Positions 31,791 through 38,638 of a DNA stretch of 40,519 nucleotides are shown in pieces. The notes beneath the pieces were generated by a model. It was not told the origin of the DNA, searched no databases, and worked only from the letters and a program-made list of their open reading frames with translations. Source of the DNA: Mucispirillum schaedleri. GTDB lineage: Bacteria; Chrysiogenota; Deferribacteres; Deferribacterales; Mucispirillaceae. A program made the translations under genes and the position numbers. How positions within the stretch are numbered: position 1 is the first letter of the stretch; every line of letters starts with the position of its first letter. The stretch is from contig CASEIN010000061.1 in assembly GCA_949287985.1 (NCBI GenBank), forward strand, positions 1-40,519, given 5' to 3'.

Positions 31791-32645
31791 TTAATAAATA
31801 TCATCAATTTTTTTAAGTGTTGCATTATACATTCTTTCCCTTTCTTCTATCATATCTCTTAAATGATGGTATGAGTAGGGCAGGCTAAGGACAATAGCAG
31901 AAGTTGCATTATCTTGAGAATCAGTATGCAGGCTTGTAATGATTACTTTTGTAGTTAAATCTTTTGCTGCACGAACTAAAGTCATATCTTCTTCTGGTAT
32001 GGAATTAACATAAATATTAACTCTAGAGCTTGCATTTACGGGAATATATGGCTCTATTTTTTTAGTAAATGCTTTAGAACGGGCAAGCATAGTATCTACA
32101 GCCGTAAAAAACTCAACTTCACCTGAAAACTGCCATACATTGAAAGGTGTATTGTTTTCTATGGTAAAACCAATTTGTATAATATTATCACTGCCTATAT
32201 TTGTATGGACATCTTTAATAACAATATCTTTTGCAAAATGTCTTGTTTTTTTGTAAGTTTTTTCTATGTTATCAAGAGTTTTTGTAACATTTATATCACG
32301 TTTTATATCATTATCAAGATTTTGTTTTAACATTTTTTTATATTCTTCAATAATCTGCTCTGGTGTTTTGCCATTTAACCTTTTATATAATTTTTCTGCT
32401 ACAATAGCTTCATCACCTGATAATATATATCCCGGTGTAAATGAATCTTTAAGGTAAAGTGTAATAGGACCTTTTATATAACTGCAAATTGTAGAATTAA
32501 TTTGAGTGCAAACAAGTGTAATATTATTTTGCAGTGTGTAAAAATCTTCTGCCACAATAGGAACCTTCATAATATTAACTTTTTCTTTTTTACAGCCTGT
32601 TATACTTATTAGTAATAATAGTATTAGTATTATTGTTTTTTTCAT
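31791..32645 (-). CDS. Putative lipoprotein of unknown function
   Basis: A 284-aa protein with a lipoprotein signal (MKKTIILILLLLISITGC, lipid at Cys18). The central part is a lysine-rich predicted helix (about 85-140) and the C-terminal half looks beta-rich (TNIGSDNIIQIGFTIENNTP). I recognise no family. GAGGAAA is a good ribosome binding site. It is the first gene of a minus-strand group that includes the oligopeptidase, and it is divergent from htpG. Confidence 0.8.
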   Translation of the reverse strand: MKKTIILILLLLISITGCKKEKVNIMKVPIVAEDFYTLQNNITLVCTQINSTICSYIKGPITLYLKDSFTPGYILSGDEAIVAEKLYKRLNGKTPEQIIEEYKKMLKQNLDNDIKRDINVTKTLDNIEKTYKKTRHFAKDIVIKDVHTNIGSDNIIQIGFTIENNTPFNVWQFSGEVEFFTAVDTMLARSKAFTKKIEPYIPVNASSRVNIYVNSIPEEDMTLVRAAKDLTTKVIITSLHTDSQDNATSAIVLSLPYSYHHLRDMIEERERMYNATLKKIDDIY

Positions 32646-32734
32646 CTATTTCCTCATATTATATAATAGTTTATATTTTTATCATAAATTTATATTATAA
32701 ATCAAGTATATTTAAAATATTTAATTATAATCTC

Positions 32735-32763
32735 TTGACAATATTCAACATAGTTATTACATT
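32735..32763 (+). promoter_or_regulatory. htpG promoter
   Basis: TTGACA (32735-32740) and TACATT (32758-32763) are 17 bp apart. Transcription would start near 32770, inside the CIRCE element that follows. Confidence 0.75.
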
Positions 32764-32767
32764 ATCT

Positions 32768-32794
32768 TTGGCACTCGACACTTACGAGTGCTAA
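32768..32794. promoter_or_regulatory. CIRCE operator for HrcA
   Basis: TTGGCACTC (32768-32776), 9 nt, then GAGTGCTAA (32786-32794). This matches the CIRCE consensus TTAGCACTC-N9-GAGTGCTAA with a single change in the left arm and exact spacing. HrcA repressors bind CIRCE and release it on heat shock. It sits at the predicted htpG transcription start, an ideal position for repression. Confidence 0.93.
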
Positions 32795-32829
32795 TAATTT
32801 AGAAATTATATTATTTAGGAGATACATTT

Positions 32830-34725
32830 ATGGCACAAACTATGGAGTTTAAAACGGAAGTATCTAAATTATTAGATATTGTTATCCACTCACTTTATTC
32901 TAATAAGGATATATTTTTAAGGGAGCTTATATCAAATGCCAGCGATGCAATAGATAAAGTTCGTTACGAAGGTCTTACAGACCAAAGCAAATATGAAAAC
33001 GATACAAACTGGAAAATAAAACTAACACCAAATAAAAGTGCAGGCACATTAACTATATCAGATAATGGTATAGGTATGGATTATGATGAAGTAATAAATA
33101 CTTTAGGCACAATTGCAAACAGTGGCACAAAAGAATTTATGAAAATGCTTGAAGAAAAAAATGCCAAAGATGCTGTTGAGCTTATTGGTCAGTTTGGAGT
33201 TGGTTTTTATTCTGCATTTATGGTAGCAGATAAAGTTACTGTTATTACAAGGAAAGCAGGACATGAAAAAGGTGTTAAATGGGAAAGTGCAGCAGATGGT
33301 AAATTTGAAATAGATGAGGCAGTTCGCCCAAGCCGTGGTACAGATATTATTCTCCATTTAAAAGAAGATGATAAATCATACCTTGATGAATGGACTATTA
33401 GAGATTTAGTTTCTAAATATTCAGACTATATAGAGCACCCAATAGTTATGGATATTGAAAGACCAAAACGCGATGAAGAAGGCAAAGAAACTGGCGAAAA
33501 AGAAGTTAAAGAGGAAGTTTTAAACTCTCAAAAAGCTATATGGTTAAAAAGCAAATCAGAAATCAGTGAGGAAGAATATAATGAGTTTTACAAGCATATT
33601 ACTCATGATTATTCAGACCCTTTAAAAACAATCCATTTTAAAGTGGAAGGCACACATGAATTTGCAGGGCTTTTATATATACCAAAAATGAAACCTTTTG
33701 ATATTATATATAAAGAATATAAGTCAGGACCTATGCTCTATGTAAAAAGAGTGCAGATTATGGAGCACTGTGAAGAACTTTTCCCACCTTATTTAAGATT
33801 TGTAAAAGGTGTTGTTGAATCAAACGATTTACCGCTGAATATATCAAGGGAAATACTGCAGAATAACAAACTTATTGAAGTAATGCGTAAAAATATTACA
33901 AAAAGAGTGCTTGATGCCTTAACAGATATGAAAAATAAAGAGTATGAAAAATACGTATCATTTTTCAAAGAATTTGGAAGGATATTAAAAGAAGGGCTTC
34001 ATTTTGAGTTTGAGAAAAAAGAAAATATTGCAGATTTAGTATTAGCAGAATCTACTGCCACAGAGGACGGCAAATATACTACATTTGCAGAATATGTTGA
34101 AAGAATGAAAGAAGGGCAGAATGATATTTATTATATCCTAGCCCCAACAAAAGCAGAAGCAATGGCAAGCCCATATATGGAAGGCTTAACAAATAAAGGC
34201 TATGAAGTTTTAATATTAACTGATGATATAGATGATATTGTAATATCAGCTTTAAGAGAATATAAAGGCAAAACTTTCAAATCAGTAGTAAAAGGCGATA
34301 TGAACTTAACTGATGAAGAAAAGGCAGAAAAAGAAAAGAAAAGCGAAGAATTAAGCTCTATATTAACACACATAAAAGAGCAGTTAAAAGATAAAATAGC
34401 AGATGTTCGCCTTTCAAGCAGGCTTACAGACAGCCCTGTATGTTTAGTAAGAGGGGAGAATGATTTTGACCCACATATGGAGCAGATTATGAAAGCTATG
34501 GGGCAGTCATTTATGGCATCAAAACGCACAATGGAAGTAAATGCAGACCACCCATTATTTGTAAAAATAAACGAGCTTTTTAATAAAGATAAAGAAAGTG
34601 AAGTATTAAAAGAATATGTAGATTTACTTTACGATGAAGCATTAATCTTAGAAGGAGCAAAACCAGTGGATGCTTCACTTTTTGCAAAAAGAGTGGCAAA
34701 CTTAATGATTAAAGGCTTGGAATAA
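32830..34725 (+). CDS. htpG: Chaperone HtpG (Hsp90)
   Basis: HtpG is the bacterial Hsp90, an ATP-dependent homodimeric chaperone. At 631 aa it is full length. The N-terminal GHKL ATPase shows LRELISNASDAIDK, SDNGIGMD and GQFGVGFYSAFMVA. The middle domain (GLLYIPKMKPFD, VKRVQIMEHCEELFPPYLRF, LPLNISREILQ) and C-terminal dimerisation domain follow. AGGAGA precedes the start. The CIRCE operator upstream indicates HrcA control. A series of hairpins follows the gene. Confidence 0.98.
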   Translation: MAQTMEFKTEVSKLLDIVIHSLYSNKDIFLRELISNASDAIDKVRYEGLTDQSKYENDTNWKIKLTPNKSAGTLTISDNGIGMDYDEVINTLGTIANSGTKEFMKMLEEKNAKDAVELIGQFGVGFYSAFMVADKVTVITRKAGHEKGVKWESAADGKFEIDEAVRPSRGTDIILHLKEDDKSYLDEWTIRDLVSKYSDYIEHPIVMDIERPKRDEEGKETGEKEVKEEVLNSQKAIWLKSKSEISEEEYNEFYKHITHDYSDPLKTIHFKVEGTHEFAGLLYIPKMKPFDIIYKEYKSGPMLYVKRVQIMEHCEELFPPYLRFVKGVVESNDLPLNISREILQNNKLIEVMRKNITKRVLDALTDMKNKEYEKYVSFFKEFGRILKEGLHFEFEKKENIADLVLAESTATEDGKYTTFAEYVERMKEGQNDIYYILAPTKAEAMASPYMEGLTNKGYEVLILTDDIDDIVISALREYKGKTFKSVVKGDMNLTDEEKAEKEKKSEELSSILTHIKEQLKDKIADVRLSSRLTDSPVCLVRGENDFDPHMEQIMKAMGQSFMASKRTMEVNADHPLFVKINELFNKDKESEVLKEYVDLLYDEALILEGAKPVDASLFAKRVANLMIKGLE

Positions 34726-34730
34726 TAAAT

Positions 34731-34764
34731 ATATAAGGGAAAAGGTTTAACTTTTCCCTTATAT
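34731..34764. terminator. Hairpin 1 after htpG (14-bp perfect stem)
   Basis: ATATAAGGGAAAAG (34731-34744) pairs exactly with CTTTTCCCTTATAT (34751-34764) around a 6-nt loop. It begins 5 nt after the htpG stop. It is the best candidate for htpG transcript termination or 3'-end protection, but no U-tract follows directly. Confidence 0.65.
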
Positions 34765-34790
34765 TGCCGAAAAAATACATTTTTTCGGCA
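34765..34790. terminator. Hairpin 2 after htpG (A/T-tract stem)
   Basis: TGCCGAAAAAA (34765-34775) pairs with TTTTTTCGGCA (34780-34790) around TACA. A GC-rich base with an internal A-tract and T-tract resembles compact bidirectional terminators. It abuts hairpin 1 with no spacer. Confidence 0.6.
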
Positions 34791-34797
34791 GTCTTTT

Positions 34798-34834
34798 GAT
34801 GAGCCTAATAATGCTCATCGCATTTTATTAGGCT
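34798..34834. other. Two mutually exclusive stems between htpG and the NERD gene
   Basis: GATGAGC (34798-34804) can pair with GCTCATC (34813-34819). Alternatively AGCCTAATAA (34802-34811) can pair with TTATTAGGCT (34825-34834). The arms overlap at 34802-34804 and the second stem encloses the 3' arm of the first, so only one can form at a time. Confidence 0.6.
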
Positions 34835-34841
34835 AAATAGA

Positions 34842-34876
34842 GAAGTAAACTTGGATACATGCTCCAAGTTTACTTC
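34842..34876. terminator. Hairpin 4 (14-bp perfect stem)
   Basis: GAAGTAAACTTGGA (34842-34855) pairs exactly with TCCAAGTTTACTTC (34863-34876) around a 7-nt loop. A T-rich run (ATTATTTTTTAT) begins about 7 nt later on the plus strand. It lies about 70 nt beyond the NERD gene stop on the minus strand and could end transcription from either side. Confidence 0.6.
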
Positions 34877-34943
34877 AATAGATTATTTTTTATATAACTA
34901 ATATTTGTTATTTTGTATTTTCTAGATACTTAATGACATTTTT

Positions 34944-35705
34944 TTATATAATTTCTCTTAACTTATCTGCCTTATATTTGCATTTAGGGTAGTTTGAGCA
35001 TCTGTAATATTTACTTTTTTTATTTTTAATCTCTATTATATCACCATTACAGTGCGGGCATTTTGTAAGCCCTTTTTTCATATCTTTTATAAGCTTTCTA
35101 TGGTTAGCTTTACTTGTGCTGCTGTTTTTCTTAATATCATTATTAATTTTTCTTAAAGTTTTCTCATTTATTTTTTTCTTACAAGAAAGTAGTTTTTTCA
35201 TTAAGTCATTAAGATTATTTTCATTTATAATAAATGTATCAGGCATGCTGCCAGAAATATTTTCTATTTCACATCTATCACTAAAAATAATTATTGAATA
35301 GTATGGTATATCATAAGTTTTTGTAAGGAATTTTACAGCATTAATATGCACTTCATTTTGAAATACTGGGTTAAAAAATGTATGCTTTTCGCCATTTTCA
35401 TATATATGTTTCCATTCTTTTTTATCTATATTACCAGAAATTACACCACCATAGTTTTTACATTCAAAAACATATATACCAGTAGCATGAACAGCAAGGA
35501 CATCAAGTTCAGTAAGCCTTCCATTTTGACGTTTTATATAAATATTTTTATAAATATAGTTTTGATTAATAATATTTGCAAGCTTATTATATATTTTATT
35601 TTCAAAAGCATTTGCTTTATATAAACGATACCTTAAAGCTGCTAAAACTTTTAAAAATAAAATAAAAAATATGATAAACAGTATTAAAACAATAATAAAA
35701 TTCAT
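34944..35705 (-). CDS. NERD nuclease-related protein with membrane helix and C4 zinc finger
   Basis: A 253-aa protein with an N-terminal transmembrane helix (about 3-21), a NERD domain and a C-terminal zinc finger. NERD domains are diverged PD-(D/E)XK nucleases; D68 (TELDVL), E81 and K83 (FECKNYGG) fit the catalytic pattern. C216-x2-C219 and C236-x5-C242 form a topoisomerase-I-type C4 finger (CPHC, RCSNYPKCKY). GGGGAG is the ribosome binding site. It is the last gene of the minus-strand island, 48 nt after the PLD-like gene. A membrane-tethered DNA nuclease is inferred; NERD proteins are common in defence islands. Confidence 0.88.
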   Translation of the reverse strand: MNFIIVLILFIIFFILFLKVLAALRYRLYKANAFENKIYNKLANIINQNYIYKNIYIKRQNGRLTELDVLAVHATGIYVFECKNYGGVISGNIDKKEWKHIYENGEKHTFFNPVFQNEVHINAVKFLTKTYDIPYYSIIIFSDRCEIENISGSMPDTFIINENNLNDLMKKLLSCKKKINEKTLRKINNDIKKNSSTSKANHRKLIKDMKKGLTKCPHCNGDIIEIKNKKSKYYRCSNYPKCKYKADKLREII

Positions 35706-35753
35706 AATCTCCCCATATTTTATTTGATATAAGCATAAGAAATAATATTATAA

Positions 35754-36512
35754 TTATTTTTCAGATATAATGTAGGTAAAATCTTTTTTGATATTAAATA
35801 AATTTTCAAGACCACTTGTAAGGTTAATAGAAATATTATCATCAATAATAATATATCTATCATGAATAGTGTTATCAATAGGATATGGATGAATTTCATT
35901 ATAACCCTTTTGCTTAAATATAGTTTTTACTTCATCACAAGTTAAATCTCCATTCCCTTTTAAAGAGATTTTGATACTTTTCTTTAATTCATTTTCATTA
36001 AACCATTTTACTAACTTATTGATTACATCTACCTTATATAAAAACCTATCAATAATAGTAATTTGATTAGCATTTTTTATTAGGCTGAAAATATGCTTTT
36101 TTGTCTTTTCTCTACTATTGCCACTTTTGAGCTCATTTGCAAAAAAATGGGTTGATTTATCTTGTATACAAATTTTATGATAATCTAAGTTATTAAATGA
36201 ACTTGGGTGTTTTGTAAGCAATATTTTATACTTTGATTTTTCAAGCATTTCCTTATAAAATTCATTAGTATATAGTTCTTTATCATATTTAACTATTTTC
36301 CAAAAGCCACCACTATTTACCATTAATTTTTGTATTAAAGCATTTTCTTCACCAAGAAGTTTTATTAACTGTTCTTTTAATTGAATGTCTGTAATTATAA
36401 ACGGTTTAAAATGATTTAATAAGTTTGTTATAGTAAGTGAACTATACTCTTTATTTACATAAAACTTAAAAAAATCTTCAATTAAATTTTGCTCAAGAAC
36501 AATATATGCCAT
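35754..36512 (-). CDS. Phospholipase-D-like (HDR-motif) protein, possible effector
   Basis: A 252-aa protein. The N-terminal 130 residues are unrecognised. The C-terminal half has TIIDRFLY (about 152-159), then H217-D-R219-YIIIDD and S233-GLENL. This resembles the single HxR/K-type half-site of phospholipase-D-like domains such as the MIT_C group, where HDR is followed by a glycine-leucine turn. Catalysis is uncertain because the usual HxKxxxxD lysine is Arg here. It starts 10 nt after the ATPase stop (AAGGA before the ATG), so it probably works with it, perhaps as an effector or sensor. Confidence 0.6.
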   Translation of the reverse strand: MAYIVLEQNLIEDFFKFYVNKEYSSLTITNLLNHFKPFIITDIQLKEQLIKLLGEENALIQKLMVNSGGFWKIVKYDKELYTNEFYKEMLEKSKYKILLTKHPSSFNNLDYHKICIQDKSTHFFANELKSGNSREKTKKHIFSLIKNANQITIIDRFLYKVDVINKLVKWFNENELKKSIKISLKGNGDLTCDEVKTIFKQKGYNEIHPYPIDNTIHDRYIIIDDNISINLTSGLENLFNIKKDFTYIISEK

Positions 36513-36522
36513 TTATTTATCC

Positions 36523-37509
36523 TTAAAATATACTCATATATTCTTTTAAGGTAGCATCAAAAAAACCAGTAGGAAAATCTCTTAGTTCATTTTTTTCATC
36601 AACAAATCTTCCTTTTTGATCTGTATAAATAGCTTCAAAAGGTTTATTTATTTCTTTATATTGAAATACTACTTTATCATGGTCTATTATGCTTCTGTTT
36701 ACATTATAGCAAAGTTTATATATTAAATGTTCGCAGTGAGTTTCAAGTATAATTTGAACGCCTTTTTGGGCAATAAAAGCAAAAAAATCTGCCAGTTTAC
36801 TTTGGGCTTTTGGGTGCAGGTGCACTTCTGGGTTTTCAATAATTACAGTATCTCCGATTTTTGCAGTTAAGCAGGCAATCAGTATAGGAAATACCATACT
36901 TGTTCCAAAGCCAGTGTTTAAGGGGGAATATGCTTCCACATCATGCGGGGCTTGGTATGAAACTATTATATTATCTTGAATATTTTCTGTTTTCACAGTT
37001 GTGCCTAGTATGTGGTTTAGCCAATATGCAACTTGACTTCTTAAAGTAGTATTTTCCATATTATCAATAGCTAATTCACTTATATTATCATTTTGTTTCT
37101 GATGATAAAAAAATGGGGCAAGTCTACCTTGCATATCTATAAAATCATAGGTATTATTTATAGTTTCATATACTTTTCTTGGTCCAATTCTTTCAGCACA
37201 TAGCAAAGTAGGGTTAAATTGTAGAGTCGATGGGCTATCTGTGTGAACACTATGAGCACCATATGCTTTAACTACTGTATCACTATCATCTTTTAATTCT
37301 ATATATTTATAATCACCTAGAAGTCCATTAATTGCATTAAAATGATAATAACTAGTTTTATCAAAAGAACCATTTCCAAAAAATAACATTGCTCTTATGG
37401 CTGTTGATTTTCCACTGGAATTTTCACCACAAAAGACAGTTAATGGTCTTATATCTAAATTTTCATTTTCCAGCACTTTAAATTTTTGTATGTTTAAATT
37501 TTTAAGCAT
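36523..37509 (-). CDS. ABC-type ATPase, AAA_15/DUF3696 family
   Basis: A 328-aa RecF/OLD-like ATPase without a fused nuclease. Walker A GENSSGKST is at 28-36, an ABC-signature-like NTGFGTS at 198-204, Walker B TVIIENPE at 221-228, the HLHP block at 230-233 and the H-loop-like ETHCEHL at 256-262. The C-terminal FPTGFFD (312-318) is the mark of DUF3696. Such ATPases occur with varied effectors in phage-defence modules. Its start overlaps the DUF262 stop by 8 nt, strongly suggesting one functional unit with that protein. Confidence 0.9.
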   Translation of the reverse strand: MLKNLNIQKFKVLENENLDIRPLTVFCGENSSGKSTAIRAMLFFGNGSFDKTSYYHFNAINGLLGDYKYIELKDDSDTVVKAYGAHSVHTDSPSTLQFNPTLLCAERIGPRKVYETINNTYDFIDMQGRLAPFFYHQKQNDNISELAIDNMENTTLRSQVAYWLNHILGTTVKTENIQDNIIVSYQAPHDVEAYSPLNTGFGTSMVFPILIACLTAKIGDTVIIENPEVHLHPKAQSKLADFFAFIAQKGVQIILETHCEHLIYKLCYNVNRSIIDHDKVVFQYKEINKPFEAIYTDQKGRFVDEKNELRDFPTGFFDATLKEYMSIF

Positions 37510-38638
37510 ATTTTTCCTTTAATTCTTCTACTATATTTTTTAGTTTATCATAATGCTTTATCATTTGGTTTGCACCTTTAAATGATTCATCAAGCCTTAT
37601 TTGAAACCATTCTTGGTTTATTATATTATCCAATTCTTTTTTCCAAGTATCATTATCAATATGTATTTTATTAAGTAATGCTGCAGTTACAAAAAATAAT
37701 GATTCAAATAATACCATATTAAATACTGGCTTTTCTTCACTTCTTCTAAATGTTTGTTTTTTATATATTGTATGCAGTAATACCATACATTTTTTAAATA
37801 GATTTTTTATTTCATTAATATATTCATCAGTCATACTATTCATTATTCGCATATATCTTCCAAGAAAATCATCAAAATCATTATATAAGTCAGTTTTTAT
37901 TCTTGTATTTATGTTCTTTATATTTTCATCATTTTTCCAAAGATAAAATACTAATGCTCGTAAAATAATGTATCTATCTTTCATTCTTAATGGGTTTAGT
38001 TTGATAGCTACTGCATCATTAAATTCATCACATTCAGATAATTCTTTTAATAATTTTGTAGATTTTCCTTGATATAGAGCATGTCGCATTTCCTGCTTAT
38101 TAAGGGGAGTGCTGCCACTATTTATTCTTTCAAAAATATTTAATTTAATATATTCTGGTGTATTAGAGCTTATTACATTTACTTGTAATTGGTAGCGCTC
38201 AATTCTTTGCTGGTCATCTCTTTCAAGTTGTGAAAATTTCAGCCCATTTAGATTTTGAAGGTATGATAGATTTTTTAATGGGTACTTATCGTCCATAAAT
38301 TTTTTTATAGCAAATAATCTTTGGAGCCCATCAACTACACTTAAACCACCATTTTTATTTTCTGCAAAATAAAATAATGGTATAGGTATGCCCATTAAAA
38401 TAGATTCCATAAGTTTAGCTTTTTTTACATCATTCCAGATATTACTATTTCTTTGAAAATCAGGGTCTAAAACTATTTTATTATTATCAATAATTCTGTT
38501 CATTTCAAATATAGAAAAATTATTACGATTAAAATCTACTTTTACTGGATAATTATATTCTTGATTTAATAATGGTAAAAGGTCGCTGTCAAATACTTCA
38601 AGTTCTTTATCAATACTATCTTGTGATTTTTTGCTCAT
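37502..38638 (-). CDS. DUF262 (GmrSD-like, ParB-fold) protein
   Basis: A 378-aa protein with the DUF262 domain known from the GmrS part of type IV restriction enzymes. Diagnostic motifs are DPDFQRN (58-64), V102-DGLQR107 and FERINSGSTPLNKQEMRHALY. This ParB/Srx-like fold is proposed to bind or hydrolyse nucleotides. No DUF1524/HNH nuclease is fused at the C-terminus, which instead is a helical region of unknown role. GGGG lies 7 nt before the start. It overlaps the ATPase gene by 8 nt and lies 55 nt after the membrane-protein gene. Confidence 0.88.
   Translation of the reverse strand: MSKKSQDSIDKELEVFDSDLLPLLNQEYNYPVKVDFNRNNFSIFEMNRIIDNNKIVLDPDFQRNSNIWNDVKKAKLMESILMGIPIPLFYFAENKNGGLSVVDGLQRLFAIKKFMDDKYPLKNLSYLQNLNGLKFSQLERDDQQRIERYQLQVNVISSNTPEYIKLNIFERINSGSTPLNKQEMRHALYQGKSTKLLKELSECDEFNDAVAIKLNPLRMKDRYIILRALVFYLWKNDENIKNINTRIKTDLYNDFDDFLGRYMRIMNSMTDEYINEIKNLFKKCMVLLHTIYKKQTFRRSEEKPVFNMVLFESLFFVTAALLNKIHIDNDTWKKELDNIINQEWFQIRLDESFKGANQMIKHYDKLKNIVEELKEKYA

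Follow-up and report, generated by a model that had tools for sequence, protein, structure and literature searches.

Hairpins downstream of htpG in Mucispirillum schaedleri: very probably a decayed miniature transposable element at a transcription terminator

The YPAL elements of Yersinia insert near gene ends and terminators. According to PMC2229807, these YPAL/RU-2 elements are about 168 bp long and intergenic, have targets that span or adjoin a dyad symmetry, cause target duplications of variable length (3-26 bp), and are neither A+T-rich nor furnished with terminal inverted repeats. Prokaryotic MITEs such as Correia/NEMIS, ERIC and RUP are presented in PMC2229807 and PMC10969869 as short, non-autonomous sequences with inverted ends and stable stem-loops, most of them with a 5'-TA dinucleotide at their ends (PMC2229807). 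Long duplications are described elsewhere: PMC10132070 gives 16-28 bp for one IS1202 subgroup, the Acinetobacter members of IS1202 having the ends TGT...ACA and a DDE transposase of 441-457 aa, and PMC10045372 gives about 15 and about 25 bp for eukaryotic IS481EU. Literature searches on Mucispirillum listed nothing about repeats of the kind reported here.

The hairpin cluster that follows htpG in Mucispirillum schaedleri very probably contains a decayed miniature non-autonomous transposable element of a Mucispirillum-like genus, located at 34760-34945 and inserted at the htpG terminator, which would be the first hairpin of the cluster.

The hairpin cluster and the htpG terminator

The window is the whole stretch of DNA analysed (40,519 nucleotides, contig CASEIN010000061.1). 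Its features around the cluster are listed by position.

32830..34725, (+): htpG, 631 aa, the upstream gene, whose terminator is the predicted insertion target
34731..34764, (+): hairpin 1, perfect 14-bp stem, 34731-34744/34751-34764
34760..34945, (+): window copy of the element, a short form of the dispersed repeat
34765..34790, (+): hairpin 2, stem 34765-34776/34779-34790, 12 bp including an outer T-A pair (11 without it)
34798-34804/34813-34819, (+): alternative stem GATGAGC/GCTCATC, 7 bp, listed as an 8-pair stem in the terminator scan
34802..34834, (+): hairpin 3, 10-bp stem, 34802-34811/34825-34834
34842..34876, (+): hairpin 4, perfect 14-bp stem, 34842-34855/34863-34876
34938..34950, (+): junction at which the T-run of the element joins TATATAA of the original T-tract and the convergent stop region
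34944..35705, (-): convergent gene encoding a NERD domain and a topoisomerase-type zinc ribbon

All the stems that the first-pass annotation had listed were located, namely perfect ones of 14, 11 and 14 bp and an overlapping pair of 7 and 10 bp. The annotation's remark that a U-tract was missing was also borne out, with no long T-tract directly 3' of any stem, yet a lax terminator scan of 32000-37000 flagged six sites, four of them in the cluster. Further on, at 34939-34945, there is a run of seven T's, situated where the right end of the element is broken. The region 34700-34900 folded at -70 kcal/mol on the + strand (shuffle mean -32.85, sd 3.69, z -10.1) and with a z of -10.7 on the - strand, and 0 of 200 shuffles folded as well on either strand.

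Relatives of htpG at 90-99% identity were found in Mucispirillum contigs. Hairpin 1, with the core AGGGAAAAG-GTTTAA-CTTTTCCCT at about 34736-34759, starts at most 6 nt after the htpG stop. At the equivalent convergent site of a relative (L011) there is a single terminator and no element, the hairpin being followed there by GTTTTTATATAA; at the htpG site of L010 an almost identical hairpin is present together with the element. Hairpin 1 shares several features of an intrinsic terminator, as it is a G-C hairpin near a stop codon and has a T-tract at the unoccupied L011 site. It is the predicted htpG terminator and the left copy of the target.

Two other observations concern the surroundings of htpG. 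Short ACACTTTTT...AAAAAGTG-type repeats were noticed by eye 3' of the gene in other species of the genus (L013:7020-7100 and L014:7015-7060). Within the window, three adjoining genes at 35754-38638 match the PADLOC models NsnC, NsnB and NsnA (E 7.8e-29, 5.9e-75 and 8.8e-101) and represent a candidate anti-phage system adjoining htpG; the NsnB and NsnA matches also contain AAA and GmrSD_N domains.

A dispersed repeat and its forms

Comparison of the cluster with its own genome, which the first-pass annotation had proposed, revealed a dispersed repeat and settled the identity of the cluster. The query 34722-34890 gave seven other matches at 82-88% identity covering most of the query, and further partial ones. 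All matches elsewhere in the genome with E <= 1e-7 begin at query position 35 or later (window 34756), and therefore hairpin 1 lies outside the repeat and hairpins 2-4 lie inside it. The earlier suggestion that the cluster is the scar of a mobile repeat can thus be kept for hairpins 2-4 and has to be given up for hairpin 1, the predicted htpG terminator and target site.

When the near-consensus copy L117 (192 nt) was searched against 50 genomes of the phylum, matches were found in 9 of 10 genus genomes and in 0 of the 40 others; at most 16 first-look candidates were scored per genome, so the copy counts are lower bounds. The genome of the window (G000) contained at least 18 matches at no fewer than 15 places, the window included, and the one-contig genome G006 a single weak relic. 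The tenth genus genome (G004), which is 57% complete, had no match. Among plasmid and phage records the repeat had no match at E 1e-5, and two exact-pattern scans of viral contigs did not find it.

Intact copies have the inverted ends CAGAYTGTCRAAAAA...TTTTTTGACAGTCTG, the terminal inverted repeat being CAGAYTGTCRAAAAA. Across the aligned copies the common left end reads (T)CAGATTGTCGAAAAAATACATTTTTTCG.CAGTC and the common right end AATAACTTTTTTGACAGTCTG; the outermost bases are CAGA...TCTG, and the consensus is A+T-rich. Copies with both ends measure 190-196 nt in the short form and 247-256 nt in the long form (leaving out L128, one end of which is uncertain), and the long forms carry about 65 nt extra in the loop of hairpin 3. 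Internal-deletion forms have lost hairpin 4 (L146, L149 and L151), and truncated copies have lost either the left end (L143, L144, L154 and L155) or the right end (L148 and L150).

Hairpin 2 is the left-end hairpin and bears the left terminal inverted repeat together with a mirror of it; it was aligned in 19 copies and shows some compensatory changes. The conserved stem of hairpin 3 is AGCCTAATAA(TGC)/(GCA)TTTTATTAGGCT. This 10-bp stem and the 7-bp stem overlapping it had been described as mutually exclusive structures, a proposal that the alignment does not favour: the full 7-bp stem survives in only 2 of 19 copies, and it is therefore probably incidental. On the same count a switch RNA was ruled out. 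The outer pairs of hairpin 4 in the window differ from those of other copies in a compensatory manner. Judged from the alignment, the compensatory changes in the element could come from RNA selection or from palindrome correction.

The copy at the htpG site of L010 has the long-form loop and is without hairpin 4 and the right end, and the window copy is a short form; a loss or a gain of the loop segment must therefore have occurred at what is one orthologous insertion. In G006 the degenerate copy can be aligned over 211 nt with the long form (72.5%), an indication that the latter is the older of the two forms. The extra block of 65 nt inside the long form (as in L142) is a dispersed repeat itself, standing alone at L259-L277; G006 and G004 contain it as well. 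Just 3' of genes, two sites (L295:7237-7266 and L296:7040-7075) show only a palindrome, of 30 and 36 nt respectively, built from the two element ends; these are probably minimal derivatives of the element.

Duplicated terminator hairpins and the proposed insertion process

In many copies, the element is bordered directly on its left by a terminator hairpin and directly on its right by that hairpin's second copy. Direct repeats of 16-36 nt, which usually enclose the whole terminator hairpin, flank 12 of 25 copies, about half. The gap-free direct-repeat score was at least 12 in 12 of these 25, 3-6 in five (the window copy scoring 3) and 0 in eight; L118 and L128 were counted in this set despite their uncertain right ends, and L092, in which no end was found, was omitted. 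As a control, 600 mismatched pairings of left and right flanks gave a median of 0, a 99th percentile of 7 and a maximum of 16, and nine of the 25 copies scored above this maximum. Perfect direct repeats of 32 nt flank L142 and L091. A duplication of about 14 nt was seen by eye at L147, with no clear hairpin, and some intact copies are missing the hairpin pair: L116 has the right one only, L158 the left one only, and L119 and L125 have none that is clear.

Empty sites with one terminator were found at one locus. Around the element in L117 there are two hairpins, and when its flanks are placed on G001 they overlap by 22 nt, corresponding to one terminator hairpin; the orthologous site in G006 likewise has one hairpin. 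The sites orthologous to L142 that were tried carry other terminators or none recognisable.

Duplication length followed hairpin length with a Pearson coefficient of 0.82 and a Spearman coefficient of 0.86 in 13 selected copies, that is, the 12 with a score of at least 12 plus L133, the hairpin caller having chosen another hairpin in L134. Selection keeping both hairpins would be a source of part of this correlation. The number of T's in the 8 nt after the hairpin was lower for the left copy than for the right copy in 17 of 17 elements (means 3.5 vs 5.6), counting two mis-called hairpins among the 34 (L092 left and L134 right) and tails that start one base apart in L089 and L120. Therefore the insertion takes place a few nt into the T-tract and splits the hairpin from it.

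The nearest upstream ORF (at least 90 aa) is co-oriented with the element in 26 of 29 copies, and in 24 of these that ORF stops no more than 100 nt away. Fifteen of the 29 copies stand between convergent ORFs, a context that is uninformative about orientation; ten have ORFs running along the element, three against it, and one has no downstream ORF in its stretch. The co-directional contexts, 10 vs 3, are suggestive of an orientation bias.

From these data a process of insertion may be proposed. A transposase acting in trans would join the element ends across the base of the terminator hairpin, on the 3' side a few nt into the T-tract, and with joining on both sides of the hairpin, repair would duplicate it. 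The left hairpin copy would lose most of the T-tract and the right copy would keep it, leaving the upstream gene with a hairpin and a poor T-tract and placing a complete terminator beyond the element. With a T-poor left copy and a T-rich right copy, the element probably forms an additional stretch of 3' UTR in the transcript of the upstream gene, which probably ends at the right terminator copy.

The window copy would be a decayed product of such an insertion. Its left end has changed from CAGAT to TATAT, so hairpin 1, whose last 5 nt overlap this decayed end, appears as a 14-bp stem reaching into the element. At the other side the right terminal GACAGTCTG is missing and the right terminator copy is also gone: the T-run stops before GACAGTCTG and continues with TATATAATTTCTC, which resembles TTTTTATATAAATTCTC, the T-tract with the stop region of the convergent gene in the unoccupied L011. 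A deletion between T-runs would have removed the right element end together with the right terminator copy, and so left four hairpins in a row.

With DDE transposases the duplication length is usually far less variable than it is here, which counts against the miniature element model. So do the copies that have no direct repeat or no hairpin pair, the truncated copies without a left end, the low covariation term given below and the failure to find an autonomous partner. We might speculate, though we consider it rather unlikely, that the target hairpin and not a fixed transposase ruler gauges the integration, the transposase acting at the foot of the terminator hairpin while this is extruded or single-stranded. 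If so, the duplicated segment would be the hairpin plus a few nt whatever the length of the hairpin, and the variable duplications of YPAL might be explained in this way too.

We found no cognate transposase sharing the element ends; most of the genomes searched are many-contig drafts, from which multi-copy IS may be missing. None of 7 genus genomes had a DDE_Tnp_1 (PF01609) match. Genes of the rve type were present in 6 of 7, and none of the 20 rve matches examined, out of 68, had paired element ends around it. Among the loci scanned for PF01609, PF00078, PF00665 and PF01797, a set separate from the Y1_Tnp loci of a later search, no gene had paired ends. NF033594 gave ten matches below cut-off (L105-L114) in several genus and family genomes; the open frames measured 589-640 aa, and paired element ends were lacking at all ten loci; the L105 frame is presumably a Mu-type phage transposase. 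When 2 mismatches were allowed, a 15-base end pattern occurred more often than its reversed control in G000 (74 vs 33) and not in G006 (56 vs 89), and no partner was located among the matches listed. The end-only matches L295-L299, with ORFs listed for four of the five, were truncated or minimal derivatives, and L300-L302 were aligned only.

A separate observation was made on IS481-like sequences. In G006, an IS of 1095 bp (L199-L214) has perfect 25-27 bp duplications in 13 of 16 copies, these being 16 of 24 matches in that length class. In 9 of the 16, the start of a -35-like hexamer (at most 1 mismatch to TTGACA) is separated by exactly 4 bp from the end of the duplication or insertion, accompanied in those nine by 4-6 of 6 TATAAT matches at 17 bp spacing; this IS may target promoters. 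A homologous IS481-like gene occurs in the genome of the window (L182:1087-2025, G000:C52; NF033577, scoring 158.8 bits against a cut-off of 224), with a direct repeat of about 25 nt visible by eye on its flanks, the left copy of which is able to form a hairpin. Enzymes that make long duplications therefore exist in the genus.

Alternative origins and comparison with known systems

The first-pass annotation had offered a bidirectional terminator array, in which the hairpins would have evolved locally and been selected for termination of the convergent htpG and NERD genes. Four strong hairpins do occupy a convergent site and terminator-like sites were listed on both strands, but hairpins 2-4 are repeated elsewhere as a single dispersed unit, one terminator is present at the equivalent convergent site of L011, and 13 of the 29 copies have co-directional genes on either side. 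Nothing points to selection as an array, and we regard this origin as barely credible. The stand-alone structured small RNA that had also been offered found no support. It is likewise highly unlikely that the copies form a structured small RNA family or riboregulator that spread secondarily to an RNA function. The strong folds and conserved interior speak for such a family, as does part of the proposed covariation check, which gave at least one compensatory change in 8 of 37 consensus pairs; the other part speaks against it, since the covariation term was only -0.16 kcal/mol (computed on the alignment without a shuffle control) and palindrome correction at the DNA level also yields compensatory changes. 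The window has no Rfam match at gathering score, by which a known RNA family was ruled out, and the four hits of a permissive scan of the intact copies L117, L142 and L158 all fell below that score. The unconserved alternative stem and the several internal-deletion forms also argue against an RNA family. Whatever the RNA role, mobility is needed because of the flanking duplications and the empty site.

Two other modes of movement were considered. A REP-like palindromic element moved single-stranded by a Y1 (REP-associated tyrosine) transposase would suit the palindromic and extragenic nature of the repeat, and Y1_Tnp matches were found in 3 of 7 genus genomes (without internal stops in G003, with an internal stop in G001, and as a short fragment at a contig end in G000). 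To our knowledge, however, Y1 elements give no target duplication, long duplications flank 12 of 25 copies here, and the drafts G002 and G005 have many copies and no Y1_Tnp match; we give this mode a very slight chance. Group IIC introns choose terminator hairpins, and a retro-element using target-primed reverse transcription at terminators would account for the terminator targeting, the variable duplication length and the copies without a left end. Against it, RVT_1 (PF00078) was found in 0 of 11 genomes, seven of them of the genus, inverted terminal repeats are present, and copies without a right end exist too (L148 and L150), so that a retro-element is most improbable.

As a miniature transposable element, the repeat means that the genus has its own repeat family spreading via transcription terminators, and that in upstream genes the terminator is probably split and the 3' tail structured. 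Because the hairpin is duplicated, both insertion and decay can be read easily, and through the relation of duplication length to hairpin length, the choice and cutting of terminators by such elements becomes testable.

Like the MITEs, the element is short, has many dispersed copies and terminal inverted repeats, and duplicates its target, but its ends are CAGA...TCTG and what it duplicates is a terminator hairpin. Its target duplications distinguish it from REP/BIME sequences. Long target duplications are shared with elements of the IS1202/IS481 type, whereas the ends are not the TGT...ACA of IS1202 and the duplication length varies with the target hairpin. By description and not by sequence, the Yersinia element YPAL, as portrayed in PMC2229807, comes closest among the elements described. 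The two are alike in approximate size, in duplications of variable length and in dyad-symmetric targets; they differ in phylum, in the terminal inverted repeats and A+T-rich consensus of the element here, and in the duplications, 3-26 bp for YPAL and 16-36 nt here, usually with a whole hairpin. We class the repeat with the bacterial miniature elements, as a new family whose mode of action resembles that of YPAL and whose hairpin duplication is unusually clear.
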